Shown one piece after another: positions 38,386-45,769 of a stretch of 64,000 nucleotides of DNA (its first letter is position 1; each line of letters begins with the position of its first letter). The stretch lies in assembly GCA_030824515.1 (NCBI GenBank), contig JAVBXN010000021.1, positions 1 to 64,000 on the forward strand, read 5' to 3'. Position numbers and translations under genes: made by a program. Below the pieces are notes generated by a model. The model was not told the origin of the DNA. It did no database searches and was given only the letters and a program-made list of their open reading frames with translations. This DNA is from Pelobacter sp. GTDB lineage: Bacteria > Desulfobacterota > Desulfuromonadia > Geobacterales > Pseudopelobacteraceae.

Positions 38386-38748
38386 TTATTTCGTCATAGA
38401 TGGCACAGTGCCATACGTAGCTTCTATCGGCTCCTTAACCACCCATAATGCCGGATTCTGGTCTGAAAATCCTGCTTCCCTGCAGTGCTTGACGGCGATA
38501 ATGAAAAGAGTATCGCCCTGGATGCGATAACGGATCACATATCCCGAAGCGCCAAAAGGGACAAAAATATCGTGGTAATCCGGCAGCTCTTCCACCGGCT
38601 TTCCCATACAGGGATTTGATGCGACCGGCGCAACGGCATTTCTGATAAGCCGGACTGCCCGTTGTGCCGCTTCGATATTATGCGGCTGGATAAAATCCTT
38701 CAGGCGCTGAAGGTCAAGGATCGCGGATTCAAGCCACTCTATCCGCAT
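38386..38748 (-). CDS. ParE/RelE-superfamily toxin
   Basis: 120 aa. The first 95 residues fit the RelE/ParE fold: an N-terminal WLESAILDLQRLKDFI helix, GKPVEELPDYHDIFVPFG, and YVIRYRIQGDTLFIIAVKHCRE. A C-terminal tail of about 25 residues is longer than usual. Toxins of this family cleave ribosome-bound mRNA or poison gyrase. It overlaps the upstream antitoxin gene by 10 bp, the normal arrangement. Confidence 0.85.
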   Translation of the reverse strand: MRIEWLESAILDLQRLKDFIQPHNIEAAQRAVRLIRNAVAPVASNPCMGKPVEELPDYHDIFVPFGASGYVIRYRIQGDTLFIIAVKHCREAGFSDQNPALWVVKEPIEATYGTVPSMTK

Positions 38749-39023
38749 TTTGGAGCCTCAAGCTCGTTTTCGGTACCCCATGATTCGAGCCACTGCATGA
38801 CGGCATCATGCGGAACCGATTTGCCGGTATGGCAGTAATCTTCCCATCGTGCCACCGACTCCTGTTTAAACTGTTCCGCAGCCTCTTCCCGATCCAGATA
38901 CTGGGTAATTGCCTCTTTAGCAAGCCAATGAGCTGAACGTTTTTTTGCCGCACCCAGTTGCTGCAGGCGATCCCTGTCTTGCTGAGGCAGCTTGATTGCC
39001 ATGGGTTTTACCTGCGTCTGCAT
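38739..39023 (-). CDS. Ribbon-helix-helix antitoxin
   Basis: 94 aa. Residues about 8-48 match an RHH DNA-binding domain (MAIKLPQQDRDRLQQL ... SAHWLAKEAITQYLDR). The C-terminal half is the likely toxin-binding tail. RHH antitoxins repress their own promoter. It precedes and overlaps the ParE-like toxin gene. Confidence 0.85.
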   Translation of the reverse strand: MQTQVKPMAIKLPQQDRDRLQQLGAAKKRSAHWLAKEAITQYLDREEAAEQFKQESVARWEDYCHTGKSVPHDAVMQWLESWGTENELEAPKCG

Positions 39024-39490: not shown

Positions 39491-39510
39491 CTCCGTGCTT
39501 TGCTACCGGG

Positions 39511-39700
39511 TAGGTCAGGGGCCTCTCGACCCCTTTCCCCCCTCAGAACCGTACGTGACAGTTTCCCGTCATACGGCTCAAGCACTCCAAAGTCATCTCC
39601 CTCTCGGGATACCCGCCCGCTGCTTTCACAACGGACTTTACGATACCGGCCAGCAGTCTTCACCCATAGGCGGAGGGCGCACCAGCATGTCTTTCGACTG
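39511..39700 (-). mobile_element. Group II intron remnant (3' part with domains V and VI)
   Basis: On the minus strand a 34-nt domain V hairpin lies at 39579-39546. It starts GAGCCGTATGAC, has a GAAA tetraloop, closes with GTACGGTTC, and keeps the catalytic AGC triad. A domain VI-like GGGGTC-gaga-GGCCCC hairpin and a CTACCC 3' end follow. About 120 nt of domain IV-like sequence lies upstream. No reverse-transcriptase ORF or 5' domains are present: upstream sequence switches abruptly to the transposase-associated repeats at about 39700. Confidence 0.75.
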
Positions 39701-39820
39701 TGTGTTCTGGGGACACCTTTGTGTTCTGGGGACACCTCTTTGTGTTCTGGGGACACCTTACTTAATTCAGTTTTCCCTTTTGTTCTGGGGACACCTTACT
39801 TAATTCAGTTTTCCCTTTGG
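39701..39820 (+). repeat. Left array of the transposase-flanking repeat (four copies, two full)
   Basis: The core TGTTCTGGGGACACCT occurs at about 39703, 39723, 39743 and 39781. The last two copies continue into TACTTAATTCAGTTTTCCC. The RAYT stop codon at 39800 lies in the last copy. Confidence 0.85.
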
Positions 39821-40459
39821 CCCTGGTTTTTCAGGTTTTAAGGTACGATTTAGGTCTGCCTCCAAACTTTCAACAAACTCTTCAGACCCAAGCGGTCTTC
39901 CACTACGCTCATGCTTCCTAATATCGTTCAGCAGTTCTTCATTTGCCCCGGCAAGAAATGTTTTCCAGTCGCCCACCATCTCAAGAAGCGGCGACACCTT
40001 GACAAGCCCATCATCCTTTCCCGCCAAATGTGCCTGTGCACTGCTCCATGGCCATTCAGCTACATCTGTTGCAAGATTGGCCCGCACTGGATTCATCTCA
40101 ACATAAAGAGCAGCGGCGAGAAGATAATTCTCATCCATAGGGAACGAAGCAAATCGCCCTTGCCAGAGATGCCCTCTCCAATTCTCGCGGAAGTTGATCA
40201 TACGGCTGTAGCGCCTGTGAGCTTCACCGATTCCCCGGCGCAAACCATCCTCGGATTCCGGCACAGCTATTAGGTGGACATGGTTCGGCATAAGGCAGTA
40301 AGCCCAAATTTCCACGCTGCACTTCTGGCACCATTCGGACATCAAGGCAATGTAAGCCTGATAGTCTTCATCCTTAAAGAAAGTCGGCAACCTTCTATTG
40401 CCCCGTTGCGTAACATGGTGGGGAATACCGGCAGCTATAACACGTGCGATTCGAGCCAT
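39800..40459 (-). CDS. REP-associated tyrosine transposase (RAYT, IS200-like Y1)
   Basis: 219 aa. Starts MARIARVIAAGIPHHVTQRG. The HUH metal motif is His60-Val-His62 in MPNHVHL; the catalytic tyrosine is Tyr119 in ALYVEMNPVRANL. RAYTs are single-domain relatives of IS200/IS605 TnpA that cut single-stranded REP sequences. Here arrays of one repeat flank the gene in inverted orientation. It appears intact; the last codons overlap the left repeat array. Confidence 0.92.
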   Translation of the reverse strand: MARIARVIAAGIPHHVTQRGNRRLPTFFKDEDYQAYIALMSEWCQKCSVEIWAYCLMPNHVHLIAVPESEDGLRRGIGEAHRRYSRMINFRENWRGHLWQGRFASFPMDENYLLAAALYVEMNPVRANLATDVAEWPWSSAQAHLAGKDDGLVKVSPLLEMVGDWKTFLAGANEELLNDIRKHERSGRPLGSEEFVESLEADLNRTLKPEKPGPKGKLN

Positions 40460-40492
40460 GCGAGAAAATTAACGCTTTCTACTTCAGGAGCC

Positions 40493-40566
40493 AATGTGAA
40501 TTAAGTAAGGTGTCCCCAGAATTCCCGGCAATGTGAATTAAGTAAGGTGTCCCCAGAATTCCCGGC
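40493..40566 (-). repeat. Right array of the transposase-flanking repeat (two 37-bp tandem copies)
   Basis: AATGTGAATTAAGTAAGG followed by TGTCCCCAGAATTCCCGGC occurs twice, back to back (about 40493-40529 and 40530-40566). It is the inverse orientation of the left array (AGGTGTCCCCAGA versus TCTGGGGACACCT). Confidence 0.88.
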
Positions 40567-40722
40567 AAAGATAGGCAAAAAGGGTCGTAATGACGAATTT
40601 TGTAATGATAAGCATAAACACTCCGCTTTTCTCCGGCTGTCCGTGCTAAAGCTGATGTCAGCGGCGTCTTTGGTTCCGCAACTTCCAGCCGGTTCCTCTC
40701 TTGGTTCTGCCGCTTTTCCAAA

Positions 40723-40917
40723 CTACTCCACCAGTTTACTTTCTCCGGCGAAATGCTTGCGACACGGGGTGTTTCCTGGCTTTGTGGGTTTTGATAGATT
40801 TTTCAACTCTTCCTTGCCGCTCCACCAGTTTACTTCTCCGGTGACAAACGCGGAGCCAGCAAGTTCCTCTTCATTTACGCCGTCAGTGCCGTCACACTCC
40901 TCGGTTTGCTTTTTCAT
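40723..40917 (-). CDS. Possible fifth integron cassette ORF, hypothetical
   Basis: 64 aa, hydrophilic, with no recognised domain. The ATG at 40917 lies only 7 nt after the R' box of attC A, the spacing seen in cassettes. No clear ribosome site and no closing attC are visible; instead the transposase repeats begin at 40566. Two imperfect CCACCAGTTTACTT repeats (about 40729 and 40820) lie inside. May be a truncated cassette or non-coding. Confidence 0.3.
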   Translation of the reverse strand: MKKQTEECDGTDGVNEEELAGSAFVTGEVNWWSGKEELKNLSKPTKPGNTPCRKHFAGESKLVE

Positions 40918-40923
40918 TTAGTC

Positions 40924-40994
40924 GGCCAACGTGATAAGGCACACCGGCTCGGCGGGGGCTTTTCCCCGCTGACCGGTGCTGCCGTTTGTTGAAT
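40924..40994 (-). other. attC site A
   Basis: 71 bp bounded by GGCCAAC and GTTGAAT; on the minus strand R'' is ATTCAAC (perfect RYYYAAC) and R' is GTTGGCC (one mismatch to GTTRRRY). The interior folds as an imperfect hairpin: GGCACACCGG...CGGGG with CCCCG...CCGGTGCTGCC. Confidence 0.72.
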
Positions 40995-41098
40995 ATTCGG
41001 TGTTCTCGTCGTTGGTTTATCTTGTCTTGTCAAATGCGTCTGACCTTGAAGGCTCTACTCCGACCTGGTTGGAAAGTGTTCTAATTTACAGTTTTCGT

Positions 41099-41671
41099 TC
41101 ATTTTTCGACATAAACCCAATTTCCTTCTACACGCCCTTCATAGTTATGTTCCCAAGCTTTAGGGTTTATACTTAGTGTCGATTTTTTCGTATACTTTCC
41201 GTCCTTCATTCCTCCAGAACTACATTGAATAATTTGTTTAAATTCAAGTGATATTTCTACTTCAATCGGTTTACTCCATTTGTTATTCATGGAATTCATA
41301 TTAATTCCGCAAACTATTTCGTCTACCGCTTTGATATGACGTGAAAATGAATAGGACACGACATTATTTTGAGTTTTAATCAAAGCGCCCCCGGTATCTG
41401 TACGATCAATTCCGCTCCAGATATAACCATAAACTTTCCCAATATTTACTTCTTTTGGAAATGTGGCAGTAATAAATATATTGGACAACTCGGCGCCAGA
41501 TGTAGCGTCTACGTGAATTGATACCCCGTATATTTTGGATTTATCCGAATTATCAAATTTAAAGTATGTCTTGCTGCCAAACATCGGCATTCTGCAAGTG
41601 TCATCATCATAGGGAATGCAGGATACTAGAGAAAATATTGAAACAAGAATGAGAACTCTAAGCAATGCCAT
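41099..41671 (-). CDS. Cassette 4: lipoprotein of unknown function
   Basis: 190 aa. The lipobox LVSC places the lipid on Cys18. The mature part is beta-rich and polar with several cysteines (CRMPMFG, IVCGINM, IIQCSSGG). No family recognised. GGAG lies 7 nt before the ATG. AT-rich compared with the chromosome, ends about 105 bp before attC A, and fits the common pattern of exported proteins carried in cassettes. Confidence 0.65.
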   Translation of the reverse strand: MALLRVLILVSIFSLVSCIPYDDDTCRMPMFGSKTYFKFDNSDKSKIYGVSIHVDATSGAELSNIFITATFPKEVNIGKVYGYIWSGIDRTDTGGALIKTQNNVVSYSFSRHIKAVDEIVCGINMNSMNNKWSKPIEVEISLEFKQIIQCSSGGMKDGKYTKKSTLSINPKAWEHNYEGRVEGNWVYVEK

Positions 41672-41720
41672 GAAGCACTCCAGTAGAATGTGAGAAATTT
41701 GTTTGTATTTTTTTATTCGT

Positions 41721-41777
41721 GTTCAACGGGGTGAGCCTTCACCTGCCGGGTTTTAGGGCAGGTGCAAGGCGTTGGTT
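41721..41777 (-). other. attC site B
   Basis: 57 bp from GTTCAAC to GTTGGTT; minus-strand R' GTTGAAC is perfect and R'' AACCAAC has one mismatch. The stem GCCTTCACCTGCC / GGGCAGGTGCAAGGC is nearly perfect around a short loop. The 41778-41880 stretch beside it is the untranslated tail of cassette 3. Confidence 0.75.
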
Positions 41778-41880
41778 GTACGCTGTCTGTTCATTTTCAC
41801 CAGAACCAGAAAAGAATGAGTCCTGCCGCTTGTGGGAATTGTCATCTGGTCATTCTTTACGAAGTTTTTCTTGTTGGGGC

Positions 41881-42801
41881 TTACTTGGACAGTGTCTTTT
41901 TAGCATGGTCGATAAATGTTACGGGGCTCGTTTCAACAAGGCGTCTCAAATCGCACCTTCGCTGATGAACCTGCATCGCGAGACCGGCGACCTCGATGGT
42001 GGTGCCTACCAAAGCGCTAATTGCTGCTGTCAATGGCTGCCCAGCTATGGCTGAGATGAAAGACCCTCCAAGGGCGGTAGGCATGACCTTTGAGTTGAGG
42101 AGTGTAGTCAGGAGTCCATGAGTCGTTTTGAAACCCCATTCCTTAACAGCCTGGCGATACTCGCTCAGTCGAACGTGGATGTCGTCCTCGATAAATGTGC
42201 GTGACTTGCCCGAGTAGTTTTGAAATGCAAACATCCGAAATCGGCGTAGGCGTTCTCGTGCCTCGTCGCATTTTCGGAATTCCAATATGTGCTCCCAACT
42301 CACTCCATTTGTGTCGATTAGTTCCAGTTGTTTGATTGTGACCATGGCATCCCCGCTTGAAGATTCATCCGAGATCGCAAAACTCGCCATGTCACAAGGC
42401 ACTGAGCCGAGACCAAAGTCAGAGATCAGAGACCCTAGTCCATGCTCCATTTCCTTCTCAAGGCCTGTATAGCGTTCATCTGTCACTCCTGCAATTCCTG
42501 ACTCTAATTCGTAGTGGCGCTGCATCAATTTGACCGTCCAGTAGAGCGACACCTCGTTTACGTCGGCCAATCTTCGCTTGAACTGCGCGTTGTCTTTCAG
42601 TCGAGGAGGCAGAAGCTGCTCTCTCAAATCAAGTGGCCACAAATTCTGAATATTGCGGAAGGGGTCGTCACAGAAGAGACGCTCTGGCCCTATGGTCAGA
42701 ATCAGTTCAAATCCGAGGTTTGCAGGGATGACCGTATCAAAGTATATGGCCGACTCCTTGAGCCCCACGAGTGAGATGGCCGATGTCGAGTAATTTGTCA
42801 T
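41881..42801 (-). CDS. Cassette 3: hypothetical protein
   Basis: 306 aa from ATG at 42801, preceded by GGAGAG and lying 11 nt after the R' box of attC C. An upstream in-frame start at 42888 lies inside attC C and is rejected. The protein is mostly hydrophilic and helical, with a hydrophobic stretch around 245-275 (ISAIAGQPLTAAISALVG). No family recognised. It is large for a cassette gene. Confidence 0.65.
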   Translation of the reverse strand: MTNYSTSAISLVGLKESAIYFDTVIPANLGFELILTIGPERLFCDDPFRNIQNLWPLDLREQLLPPRLKDNAQFKRRLADVNEVSLYWTVKLMQRHYELESGIAGVTDERYTGLEKEMEHGLGSLISDFGLGSVPCDMASFAISDESSSGDAMVTIKQLELIDTNGVSWEHILEFRKCDEARERLRRFRMFAFQNYSGKSRTFIEDDIHVRLSEYRQAVKEWGFKTTHGLLTTLLNSKVMPTALGGSFISAIAGQPLTAAISALVGTTIEVAGLAMQVHQRRCDLRRLVETSPVTFIDHAKKTLSK

Positions 42802-42811
42802 ACGCTCTCCA

Positions 42812-42886
42812 GTACAACAGGGTGCCCGGTTCACCCGCTTCGCCCGGTTTTTCAGGGCGGGGCGGCGTGCAACCGGCTGGTTGAGC
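42812..42886 (-). other. attC site C
   Basis: 75 bp from GTACAAC to GTTGAGC; minus-strand R'' GCTCAAC is perfect and R' GTTGTAC has one mismatch. Interior arms GCCCGGTT...CGCCC and GGGCG...CAACCGGC form an imperfect hairpin. Confidence 0.72.
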
Positions 42887-42928
42887 ATTCTTACTCACAG
42901 TTGTTGGAGCTTGGACATTTCTTTCGGG

Positions 42929-43219
42929 TCAATTTGATTGCAAAATACTTCTGGTTTGAAAGCAGTCGAAACAGACGAAAACGTAGATCATGCCACAGTC
43001 AGCGAGAATGACTCGGTCTCCAATCGAATCCAGCTGGCCATAAAATGTCATCTCTTTTCCGCATGAGCACTTCGGTGTATCCGGCTCTTGTATCCAGTCT
43101 GGTTTTCCTCCGATTTTGTTTCTATTTCCGATTTCTTCACCGGCCCACTCAAAACCAATAACCTTTTCTGCTTCCTCAGTTCGTGGACTTAGATTTAACT
43201 GAATCTCTGGGATTATCAT
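42929..43219 (-). CDS. Cassette 2: small zinc-ribbon-like protein, DUF1963/YwqG-like tail
   Basis: 96 aa. The pattern GGKPDWIQEP, CSCGKEMTFYGQLDSIGD, then DCGMIYVFVCFDC resembles the C-terminal part of DUF1963 (YwqG-like) proteins. The two Cys pairs could bind zinc. GAGG precedes the ATG, which lies 28 nt after the R' box of attC D. The family link is from pattern memory, not a search. Confidence 0.6.
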   Translation of the reverse strand: MIIPEIQLNLSPRTEEAEKVIGFEWAGEEIGNRNKIGGKPDWIQEPDTPKCSCGKEMTFYGQLDSIGDRVILADCGMIYVFVCFDCFQTRSILQSN

Positions 43220-43246
43220 TCATTGCCTCTATTCGTTTCTTTCATT

Positions 43247-43309
43247 GCTCAACGGGGTGCGCCCTTGACCGGCGGCGTCAGCCGTCCGCGTCCGAGGGCC
43301 TGGTTGAAT
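43247..43309 (-). other. attC site D
   Basis: 63 bp from GCTCAAC to GTTGAAT; both boxes match RYYYAAC/GTTRRRY perfectly on either strand. The interior GCGCCCTTGACCGGCGG pairs imperfectly with CCGTCCGCG...GAGGGC. Confidence 0.78.
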
Positions 43310-43333
43310 CTCGCCATCAGCTGTCCTGAAGCT

Positions 43334-43744
43334 TCAGATATACTGGCTCCACAGAAACTTGCCTCTTGTTTTGCCAAACCCAAAGCAGTTTATTATGGCG
43401 AACGACCCTGTCAGATTTAAAATTTCAACTGCAACAAATGTTTCAACAACGTACATTCGATAAAGTATTAGCCCAACAACTGAAGCTGCGGCAAACGAAT
43501 ATGTTGTGAATCTTCTTGCCTTTAAATATCTATTGGGTCCGCTATAGACCCCGCATATATTGGCAATTCCTCTAAAACTTGAAAGCACGAAAATATTGAA
43601 TGTCATGAAAAACAACGACAGCGCAGAAATTGCGGATATTGAGTAGCCTAATAACGCAGCTACTCCATTTATTGAATGAATGAAAAACCCTATGATTGCT
43701 AGGATGGTAATAACAATACATACCTCAACGCTTTTTATATTCAC
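43334..43744 (-). CDS. Cassette 1: small membrane protein
   Basis: 136 aa, GTG start at 43744 behind AAAGGAAGAG and 17 nt after the lone core GTTGAAT. Four hydrophobic segments (about 5-25, 28-55, 78-97, 103-120) suggest a polytopic inner-membrane protein. No family recognised. Ends 24 bp before attC D. Confidence 0.6.
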   Translation of the reverse strand: MNIKSVEVCIVITILAIIGFFIHSINGVAALLGYSISAISALSLFFMTFNIFVLSSFRGIANICGVYSGPNRYLKARRFTTYSFAAASVVGLILYRMYVVETFVAVEILNLTGSFAIINCFGFGKTRGKFLWSQYI

Positions 43745-43760
43745 GTCTCTTCCTTTAATG

Positions 43761-43845
43761 ATTCAACTCGTTTTTAGTAGGTTTCCCTATAAAAGTCATT
43801 TATTACCTATATAATAAATTTATGCCTAATATAGGTCGTTTGCTT
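43761..43845 (-). other. Lone cassette core site and AT-rich flank (attI-like position)
   Basis: GTTGAAT (43767-43761 on the minus strand) marks the start of cassette 1. Beyond it there is no attC hairpin but an AT-rich stretch with an 8-bp inverted repeat ACCTATAT/ATATAGGT (about 43814-43845). This is where attI and the cassette promoter would sit in an integron. No integrase gene follows, so an eroded attI or a chance match are both possible. Confidence 0.35.
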
Positions 43846-43866
43846 AATTACTTATACAAGTCATAT

Positions 43867-44220
43867 TTATTCTTTCACAACTCTCTCCATCAACTCCTTG
43901 TCACCACGAATCAACCCCCATCTAACCCGCCAAAGCTTTAGCGCCGGGTCCCACTTTGCACCTACTCCTTTCAACCGATCGCGGAGCACCTTCATGGTGA
44001 ATGGGACCTGTACCAGAACCGTATCAGTCTCTCGGATTCGCGGCACGCCTTTCCCTGGTTTTTCATCTACGATAATCTCAACGGTCTTGATGCGCATATC
44101 CCTAATGGAATCGTACCGGTAGCGAACGCAGAGCAGTGAATCGCCGAACCTCTCGACCAGCCGCAGCGTTCCATTTTCACCGGGTTTCAGGTGCTTGTGG
44201 GCCTTTATATGTTTCAGCAT
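43867..44220 (-). CDS. Conserved hypothetical protein
   Basis: 117 aa from ATG at 44220, chosen because AGGAAGGG lies just upstream (44226-44233); an in-frame start at 44277 is possible. It starts MLKHIKAHKHLKPGENGT and has the basic pattern LLCVRYRYD ... KTVEIIVDE ... GAKWDPALKLWRV. I recall similar short proteins scattered in many environmental bacteria, without known function. It is not an integrase. Confidence 0.6.
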   Translation of the reverse strand: MLKHIKAHKHLKPGENGTLRLVERFGDSLLCVRYRYDSIRDMRIKTVEIIVDEKPGKGVPRIRETDTVLVQVPFTMKVLRDRLKGVGAKWDPALKLWRVRWGLIRGDKELMERVVKE

Positions 44221-44233
44221 GTATACCCTTCCT

Positions 44234-44592
44234 GAAGACGGGCCTGGAATTTCATGAAATTCATATATCACGCGCACCTGAATGAGAAAAGGATAATTCG
44301 GGGGCGGATTACAGTTCGGTATTTGACTCGAGCTTCCAGGTTGCTTGTTGCCTGTTTAACCCGGACGGCCGAAGATCAACTGCTCCATACTGCACAGTCA
44401 GGGCCAAAACCGGCTTCCGGGTCACCGCATCATTCAAATGAAAAAACTGGCAAACATTACAGTATCTTGGCGAGATGGAATCCATGGACGGCGCACAATT
44501 CCGAACCGGCAGGACCTTTCCCAAAAGTGTAAAGGTTCTTTCCACACCCGGAGCAGATCAACGCAACCACTCGATTTCCATTCGTTTTTCAA
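44234..44592. other. Intergenic region without a recognised gene
   Basis: About 360 bp with only short, overlapping frames on both strands. A GTGTAAAGG...CTTTCCACAC imperfect inverted repeat near 44526-44547 resembles the stronger repeat at 44593-44635. No cobalamin riboswitch consensus was found upstream of cobM. Confidence 0.5.
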
Positions 44593-44640
44593 AATGTGTA
44601 AAAAAACCTGCAGTTGCAAAGTTTCTTTACACATTATAAT
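44593..44640 (+). promoter_or_regulatory. Promoter with overlapping inverted repeat (possible operator)
   Basis: A perfect -10 TATAAT at 44635-44640 is preceded by TTGCAA at 44614-44619 (15-bp spacer, short). A perfect 10-bp inverted repeat AATGTGTAAA (44593-44602) / TTTACACATT (44626-44635) straddles the -35 region and touches the -10, a good place for a repressor. Confidence 0.5.
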
Positions 44641-44646
44641 TCCGGT

Positions 44647-44768
44647 GGGGCTTGCCTGTCCGGTAAGAGAGTGGAGCACCCCATAGGTGTCGCATCTCCA
44701 TTTTCAAAAAAACAAACCGGAACAAAACGCCGCAAAGCCCGATATTACAAGGCTTCACGGCGTTTTTT
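44647..44768 (+). ncRNA. Candidate small RNA of about 120 nt
   Basis: The segment starts just after a TATAAT box and ends at an intrinsic terminator. Internal pairing is visible (GGGGC...GCACCCC; CCGGT at 44660 with ACCGG at 44716). No start codon with a ribosome site and no conserved frame are visible. It does not match SRP RNA, 6S RNA, tmRNA or a riboswitch class that I can recall. It could instead be the leader of cobM if readthrough occurs. Confidence 0.4.
44727..44768 (+). terminator. Intrinsic terminator of the candidate small RNA
   Basis: Stem ACGCCGCAAAGCC (44727-44739) with GGCTTCACGGCGT (44751-44763), then six T. There is one internal mismatch bulge. Confidence 0.8.
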
Positions 44769-44989
44769 GTCATTTCATCTATCATGGCAGCTTCAACAAT
44801 CGTTCGCTGCGCCATATCGGCACGATTCACACCAGATTGCCGTCATGACGATACACAATCCTGAACTGGCCGGGCGGGAAAAGTCCGGGCAAGTGTTGCC
44901 GCAGTAGCGCGCCGGCTTGACATCCAACCGGTTACGGACTAAAAGAACAGTCGAACCTGCTGATTTTACGAACATGATGGAGAGCCTAA

Positions 44990-45769
44990 ATGACCGCCAG
45001 TGTATCTTTTGTCGGAGCCGGCCCGGGCGCCGCCGACCTCATAACCGTTCGCGGCGCTCGTCTCCTGCGGCACGCCGATGTGGTGATCTTTGCCGGCAGC
45101 CTGGTAGATCTCAAGCTGGTCCAGCGCTACGCCACCAGGGCCGACGTCTACGATTCGGCCGGCATGACGCTGGGTGAGGTGATCACGGTCATGATGGACG
45201 CCATCGCCGCCGGACGGAGCGTGGTCCGGCTGCACACCGGCGACCCCTCGATCTACGGTGCCATCCAGGAACAGATGGAGGCGCTTGACCGGATCGGCGT
45301 CACCTATCAGGTCGTGCCGGGCGTTACCAGCGCCTTTGCCGCCGCAGCGGCCCTCAAACAGGAGCTGACCCTGCCGGAACTTTCCCAGACCGTGATCTTC
45401 ACCCGCGTCGAGGGGCGCACTCCGGTGCCGGAGCGGGAACGGTTGACCGAGATCGCCCGCATCGGGGCCACGCTGGTGATCTACCTCTCGGTCGGCATGA
45501 TCGAGAAAGTTGTCGAACAGCTGCTGCAGGGCGCATATACCGGCGACACCGCTGCCGCGATCGTCTGCCGCGCCTCCTGGGAGGACGAGCAGATCATCCT
45601 GGGCTCGCTGGCAGATATCGCCGCAAAGGTGCGCGAGGCCGGCATCGACCGCCAGGCGCTGATCATCGTCGGGGATGTGCTGGCGGCGCGGCGCGAAGGG
45701 CTGAAAGCCAGGTCGCTGCTGTATGACGACGGTTTTTCCCACGGCTACCGGGAAAGCGTAGTGGTCTGA
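44990..45769 (+). CDS. cobM: Precorrin-4 / cobalt-precorrin-4 C11-methyltransferase
   Basis: 259 aa. The SAM-methyltransferase start VSFVGAGPGAADLITVRG and the VVRLHTGDPSIYGAIQEQ motif identify CobM/CbiF. It methylates C11 of precorrin-4 in corrin ring synthesis. GGAGAG precedes the ATG. The next gene, cbiG, begins one base after its stop. CbiG is typical of the anaerobic route, so the substrate is probably the cobalt form. Confidence 0.95.
   Translation: MTASVSFVGAGPGAADLITVRGARLLRHADVVIFAGSLVDLKLVQRYATRADVYDSAGMTLGEVITVMMDAIAAGRSVVRLHTGDPSIYGAIQEQMEALDRIGVTYQVVPGVTSAFAAAAALKQELTLPELSQTVIFTRVEGRTPVPERERLTEIARIGATLVIYLSVGMIEKVVEQLLQGAYTGDTAAAIVCRASWEDEQIILGSLADIAAKVREAGIDRQALIIVGDVLAARREGLKARSLLYDDGFSHGYRESVVV

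Follow-up and report, generated by a model that had tools for sequence, protein, structure and literature searches.

A cassette array without an integrase gene in a Pelobacter genome, with the leader gene, palindromic repeats and attI core of Geobacterales-type integrons

Overview of the locus

The window analysed here, a 64,000-nt stretch of one contig from the draft genome of Pelobacter sp. (4.65 Mb, 62 contigs), contains an array of four gene cassettes that is probably a Geobacterales-type sedentary chromosomal integron platform that lost intI in place, and whose leader gene product, ORF136, would bind a set of tandem palindromes, hereafter iterons. On the minus strand, the locus consists of ORF136, the iterons, an attI core and four cassettes, each ending in an attC site. 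At the level of sequence, homology of ORF136, the iterons and attI ties this locus both to integrons that have intI and to other platforms that lack it. A CALIN by itself is ordinary; the finding is the gene-palindrome-attI module, which appears to be undescribed: our search of the open-access literature recovered no paper that recognisably describes such a gene or such iterons at attI in this bacterial group. To our knowledge, no described integron has its attI preceded by a conserved gene and iterons. The features are as follows, all on the minus strand.

43867-44277 (-): ORF136, leader gene, 136 aa; homologues divergent to intI in relatives; no family above cut-off
43768-43866 (-): iterons, degenerate tandem TATA-centred palindromes, AT-rich, between the ORF136 stop and the attI core
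43760-43781 (-): attI core and first junction, GTT at 43765-43767; AACGAGTT followed by GAATC
43253-43766 (-): cassette 1; membrane-protein-like ORF of 136 aa, 43334-43744, GTG start; junctions are the attI core and its attC
43247-43309 (-): attC of cassette 1, 63 nt; R2 50.6 bits, R1 16.9 bits, arms -23.2 kcal/mol
42818-43252 (-): cassette 2; ORF of 96 aa, 42929-43219, with CxC and CxxC pairs
42812-42886 (-): attC of cassette 2, 75 nt; R2 47.3 bits, R1 19.7 bits, arms -33.6 kcal/mol
41727-42817 (-): cassette 3; ORF of 306 aa, 41881-42801
41721-41781 (-): attC of cassette 3, 61 nt; R1 45.4 bits, R2 31.1 bits, arms -25.2 kcal/mol
40930-41726 (-): cassette 4; lipoprotein-like ORF of 190 aa, 41099-41671
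40924-40994 (-): attC of cassette 4, 71 nt; R1 45.0 bits, arms -35.3 kcal/mol
40723-40917 (-): ORF of 64 aa directly past the last attC, listed by position only

attC sites and cassettes

The original prediction, made from the sequence letters, claimed four attC sites and proposed a covariance-model search and single-strand folding as checks; all four sites were recovered when two covariance models and an independent scanner were applied. The models, R1 and R2, are our own and were trained on arm-truncated alignments of attC sites from relatives, with the four sites of the window left out. R1 yields precisely four matches in the window, which are these four sites, and R2 detects three of them (50.6, 47.3 and 31.1 bits). 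Genome-wide, across the 4.65 Mb draft, the four are the top scorers under the covariance models, and other attC sites are scattered elsewhere. In each of the four, RYYYAAC-type and GTTRRRY-type boxes are combined with an asymmetric spacer (2-3 nt and 6 nt) and with stable arms, whose duplex energies are -23 to -35 kcal/mol. The purpose-built scanner, run at a threshold of -22 kcal/mol, found 4 sites in the window compared with 9 in 40 Markov-simulated 64-kb windows; this null and the covariance model rule out chance hairpins as the source of the sites. Also rejected is a dispersed element unrelated to GTTRRRY cores, which the prediction had named as a possible refutation, because the attC stems vary in sequence while boxes and spacing are constant. 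Near-copies of the cassette 4 attC (up to 94-97%) occur in many congeneric genomes.

All four units have the organization of integron cassettes, with one co-oriented ORF between attC cores and the attC at the end. The ORFs start 11-50 nt past the cores, as predicted (43219, 42801 and 41671). No cassette protein has a match above the curated cut-offs of Pfam, NCBIfam, PHROGs or PADLOC, so the earlier impression that they could not be assigned holds; lack of an assignable family is normal for integron cassettes. The 306-aa protein has no relative among 140 other genomes of the order, and the cassette proteins of the window are absent from the other loci compared. No promoter-like site above chance, as a candidate Pc promoter for the first cassettes, was found in 40400-45000. 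The 64-aa ORF past the last attC is possibly a fifth, damaged cassette, on weak grounds; neither the scanner nor R1 finds an attC after it.

Further attC matches lie near the starts (first 800 bases) of contigs C37, C39, C40 and C51, with E above 0.3 for the match on C39 and one of the two on C51; given this position, some of the repeats at which the assembly breaks may be cassette arrays.

The attI end and the missing integrase

The motif ACGAGTT lies directly upstream of the first cassette junction on the minus strand. A matrix for the attI core, built from 18 intI-bearing loci, scores 13.7 bits in the window compared with at most 10.3 across 82 background scans; 25 of 41 intI-less loci also score above this background maximum. 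Similarity between the window and several relatives, a comparison likewise proposed with the prediction, ends at 43762-43765, that is, at the first junction. Of the components of a complete integron, attI is thus represented by both its score and the breakpoints at its core.

As to intI, the window encodes none, and TIGR02249 detects no integron integrase above the cut-off anywhere in the genome, which is a draft, so that intI could lie in a gap. The top TIGR02249 matches fall within genes resembling xerC and xerD, and in fragments, and were rejected as IntI. The only trace is a 73-residue stretch on contig C55 that is 70% identical to IntI residues 286-358 and adjoins an attC-like site and two cassette-like ORFs. 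Within this region of C55 (L017, 2429-4360), the attC-like site is accompanied by a HEAT-repeat cassette and an SH3-domain cassette. Because only an intI fragment remains in the genome, the array is probably frozen for recombination.

With four attC sites in close order and no integrase nearby, the locus is a CALIN by operational definition, and the predicted array without integrase is borne out. The label CALIN-like fits to this extent; it does not fit in the sense of a randomly dropped cluster, since attI and the leader gene are kept. The search for IntI and more attC sites that had been suggested for the rest of the genome returned the C55 fragment and the further attC sites, and the earlier reading, correct on four attC sites and no integrase, had overlooked the fragment, the attI core, ORF136 and a second platform. 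The latter, on contig C11 of the same genome, is also an orphan: its ORF136 is intact, its iterons are clean, and it further comprises attI, a 268-aa cassette and an attC. We regard the locus in the window as an integron platform minus intI because attI and the gene that is found between intI and attI in relatives remain.

Conservation of ORF136

Homologues of ORF136 are found beside intI in Geobacterales and Nitrospirota. In relatives, the homologue (35-83% identity) is flanked by a divergent intI on one side and by a co-oriented attC array on the other. Scanning of genome contigs identified 265 ORF136 relatives, the best 80 of which were examined as loci. In 32 of these 80, intI is immediately upstream and divergent, a share that may be inflated because the best 80 of 265 are those nearest to an intI-adjacent query. 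In the intI-adjacent loci, palindromes, attI and cassettes come after ORF136, and many loci without intI still keep the gene, the palindromes and attI. Across the same best 80 of 265, co-oriented attC sites number 46 in 361 kb downstream of ORF136 compared with 18 in 666 kb upstream, where both strands were counted.

ORF136 is present in 42 of 58 genomes (the genome of the window included), 13 of the 42 being without an IntI match at 1e-30. The named relatives belong to Geobacter, Geomonas, Geotalea and Trichlorobacter, together with similar MAGs; plasmid and phage records yielded no ORF136. Isolates with platforms lacking an adjacent intI and with no integron integrase over the cut-off include Geomonas oryzae, G. 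azotofigens, G. edaphica, Geobacter sp. OR-1 and Geomonas sp. Red32.

The family has no Pfam or NCBIfam name, and nothing matches above cut-off. DUF5710 (PF18974) is weakly similar to the C-terminal half of ORF136, at 16.7 bits compared with the Pfam cut-off of 26.5, and is below cut-off in every member tested, relatives included; the conserved N-terminal half is not covered. The predicted fold (pLDDT 89, pTM 0.49) consists of small alpha/beta elements, and a PDB fold search gave nothing significant, the best match being NrdR (E 0.26). The DNA binding proposed for ORF136 accordingly derives from its covariation with the iterons and not from its fold.

Iterons between ORF136 and attI

The iteron stretch of the window aligns at 73-86% with the same stretch of three relatives (L072, L073 and L074). 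When palindromes are counted with at least 7 of 8 half-arm positions matching, their density per 230 nt is 1.15 after ORF136, compared with 0.11 upstream of the gene, 0.12 farther downstream and 0.13 in simulated sequence, and self-similarity peaks at a lag of 20 bp. The iterons fall into classes, including GTTACCTATATAGGTAAC, GCATCCTATATAGGATGC, GCATCTAATATTAGATGC and GCATCTACATGTAGATGC. On the ORF136 tree, iteron class, defined after inspection of the sequences, changes 9 times compared with a mean of 31 (minimum 24) after shuffling; intI presence changes 17 times among 70 loci. For the 23 loci whose IntI could be used, the partial correlation of iteron distance with ORF136 distance, controlling for IntI, is 0.50 (p 0.0005), whereas that with IntI distance, controlling for ORF136, is 0.12 (p 0.15). 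The comparison thus supports palindrome type following the sequence of ORF136, not that of IntI, with part of the covariation explicable by linkage because the iterons adjoin ORF136. The amino acid at position 10 of the 117-aa form of ORF136 differs with iteron class (His, Asn, Lys, or Ile/Thr), and this position is a predicted determinant of specificity.

These observations suggest that ORF136, probably in dimeric form, binds the iterons and that, once bound, it would regulate attI or transcription from the leader into the first cassettes; control of attI use or cassette expression is the probable role that we infer. Alternatively, the iterons could be bound by IntI itself, through an extra N-terminal domain, or by a host protein, with ORF136 serving an unrelated role. 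IntI proteins of relatives do have an N-terminal extension of about 150 residues, with a second, weak SAM-like match, and the extra repeats of attI1 have been described as supplementary integrase sites (PMC8946536). However, the iterons persist in intI-less loci and genomes, and iteron type does not track IntI when ORF136 is controlled for, so that IntI as the sole binder is disfavoured and we consider the alternative as a whole doubtful. The long IntI proteins were seen at L061 (14135-15544), L060, L062, L064 and L068; they comprise 455-478 aa, ~150 residues more at the N terminus than the family model, with the weak second SAM-like core-binding match.

Selection on ORF136

For those orphan ORF136 pairs whose dS could be computed, dN/dS lies at about 0.04-0.3, an estimate that cannot date individual intI losses. 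The values are 0.048 (at dS 1.2) for the window and G041, a second intI-less genome, 0.043 for L101 and L109, and 0.12 for L136 and L142. From these sequence comparisons, copies of ORF136 without intI are under purifying selection. Several clades of ORF136 consist of orphans only (the window with L126; L136, L142, L154 and L157; L139, L141, L143 and L150), so selection probably continued after intI loss.

The window's iterons are the most degenerate of the set, suggesting that this copy of the platform may be partly decayed, and clean palindromes are somewhat fewer in intI-less than in intI-bearing loci (0.90 vs 1.48, p 0.05). Together with the intI fragment on C55 and, at the array's far end, a transposase, an intron remnant and repeats, this degeneracy would fit a dead relic, in which leader, iterons and attI are decaying and ORF136 survives merely through recent loss of intI. 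We think this unlikely, given that whole ORF136 clades are orphan with dN/dS still near 0.1 and that ORF136 is intact in both platforms of the genome. An ordinary CALIN, formed by off-target insertions or as rearrangement debris, without attI or any role other than that of its cassette genes, would account for the absence of intI from the window and of an intact copy from the genome, where scattered attC sites show that such debris exists, but is quite improbable and largely refuted by the attI match, the first junction being an attI core preceded by the gene and repeats of intI-bearing integrons.

Under the preferred reading, an ancestral platform would have lost intI in place, while the leader gene, iterons, attI and cassettes stayed. 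Where relatives keep an intI at another site, it could supply such platforms with cassettes in trans; Geotalea sp. SG265 is an example of a genome that has one intI and several ORF136 platforms. We offer more tentatively the extended possibility that ORF136 is an accessory protein that controls cassettes at the attI iterons, and that intI-less platforms are selected units loaded in trans.

Comparison with known integrons

CALINs are likewise attC-bounded cassette arrays with no integrase beside them, but the locus in the window keeps a recognisable attI, a leader gene and repeats. Off-target insertion, loss of intI and rearrangement have been given as CALIN origins (PMC8618304), and Geobacter intI genes were noted in 2008 (PMC2426708). 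With sedentary chromosomal integrons of the Vibrio, Xanthomonas and Geobacter types, the locus shares attI, co-oriented unassigned cassettes and group-specific attC sites; it differs from them in the lack of intI and in the placement of attI downstream of a conserved gene and iteron array. The attI1 site of class 1 integrons has two direct repeats (PMC8946536), DR1 and DR2, which, like the iterons, adjoin the attI core. Here, in contrast, there are typically several palindromes of ~18 bp, spaced at ~20 bp, of several classes and behind a dedicated gene.

At the attI of Vibrio cholerae, at least one as yet unidentified host factor is required for cassettes to insert. Differing accessory proteins have been put forward, and accessory factors for attI x attC recombination in chromosomal integrons are an open question (PMC8946536). 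An integron family with a dedicated gene and its own repeat array at attI would make the host-factor question testable with a single small protein and a single DNA fragment. Arrays classed as CALINs include integron platforms without intI, and the attI end of such platforms can remain under selection after intI loss.

Surroundings of the array

A gene for a Y1 transposase (IS200-like, REP-type), accompanied by GTGTCCCCAGAA repeats, lies at the far end of the array (39800-40459, minus strand). It is followed by a group II intron 3' end (39505-39581, minus strand; Rfam RF00029, 70.4 bits), a remnant with no reverse transcriptase ORF beside it, and by a pair resembling a ParE-type toxin and a ribbon-helix-helix antitoxin (38386-39023, minus strand). 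Contigs C55 and C11 both end in one shared transposase-like sequence just past cassette-like genes (L017, 4690-4784; L188, 9700-9807).
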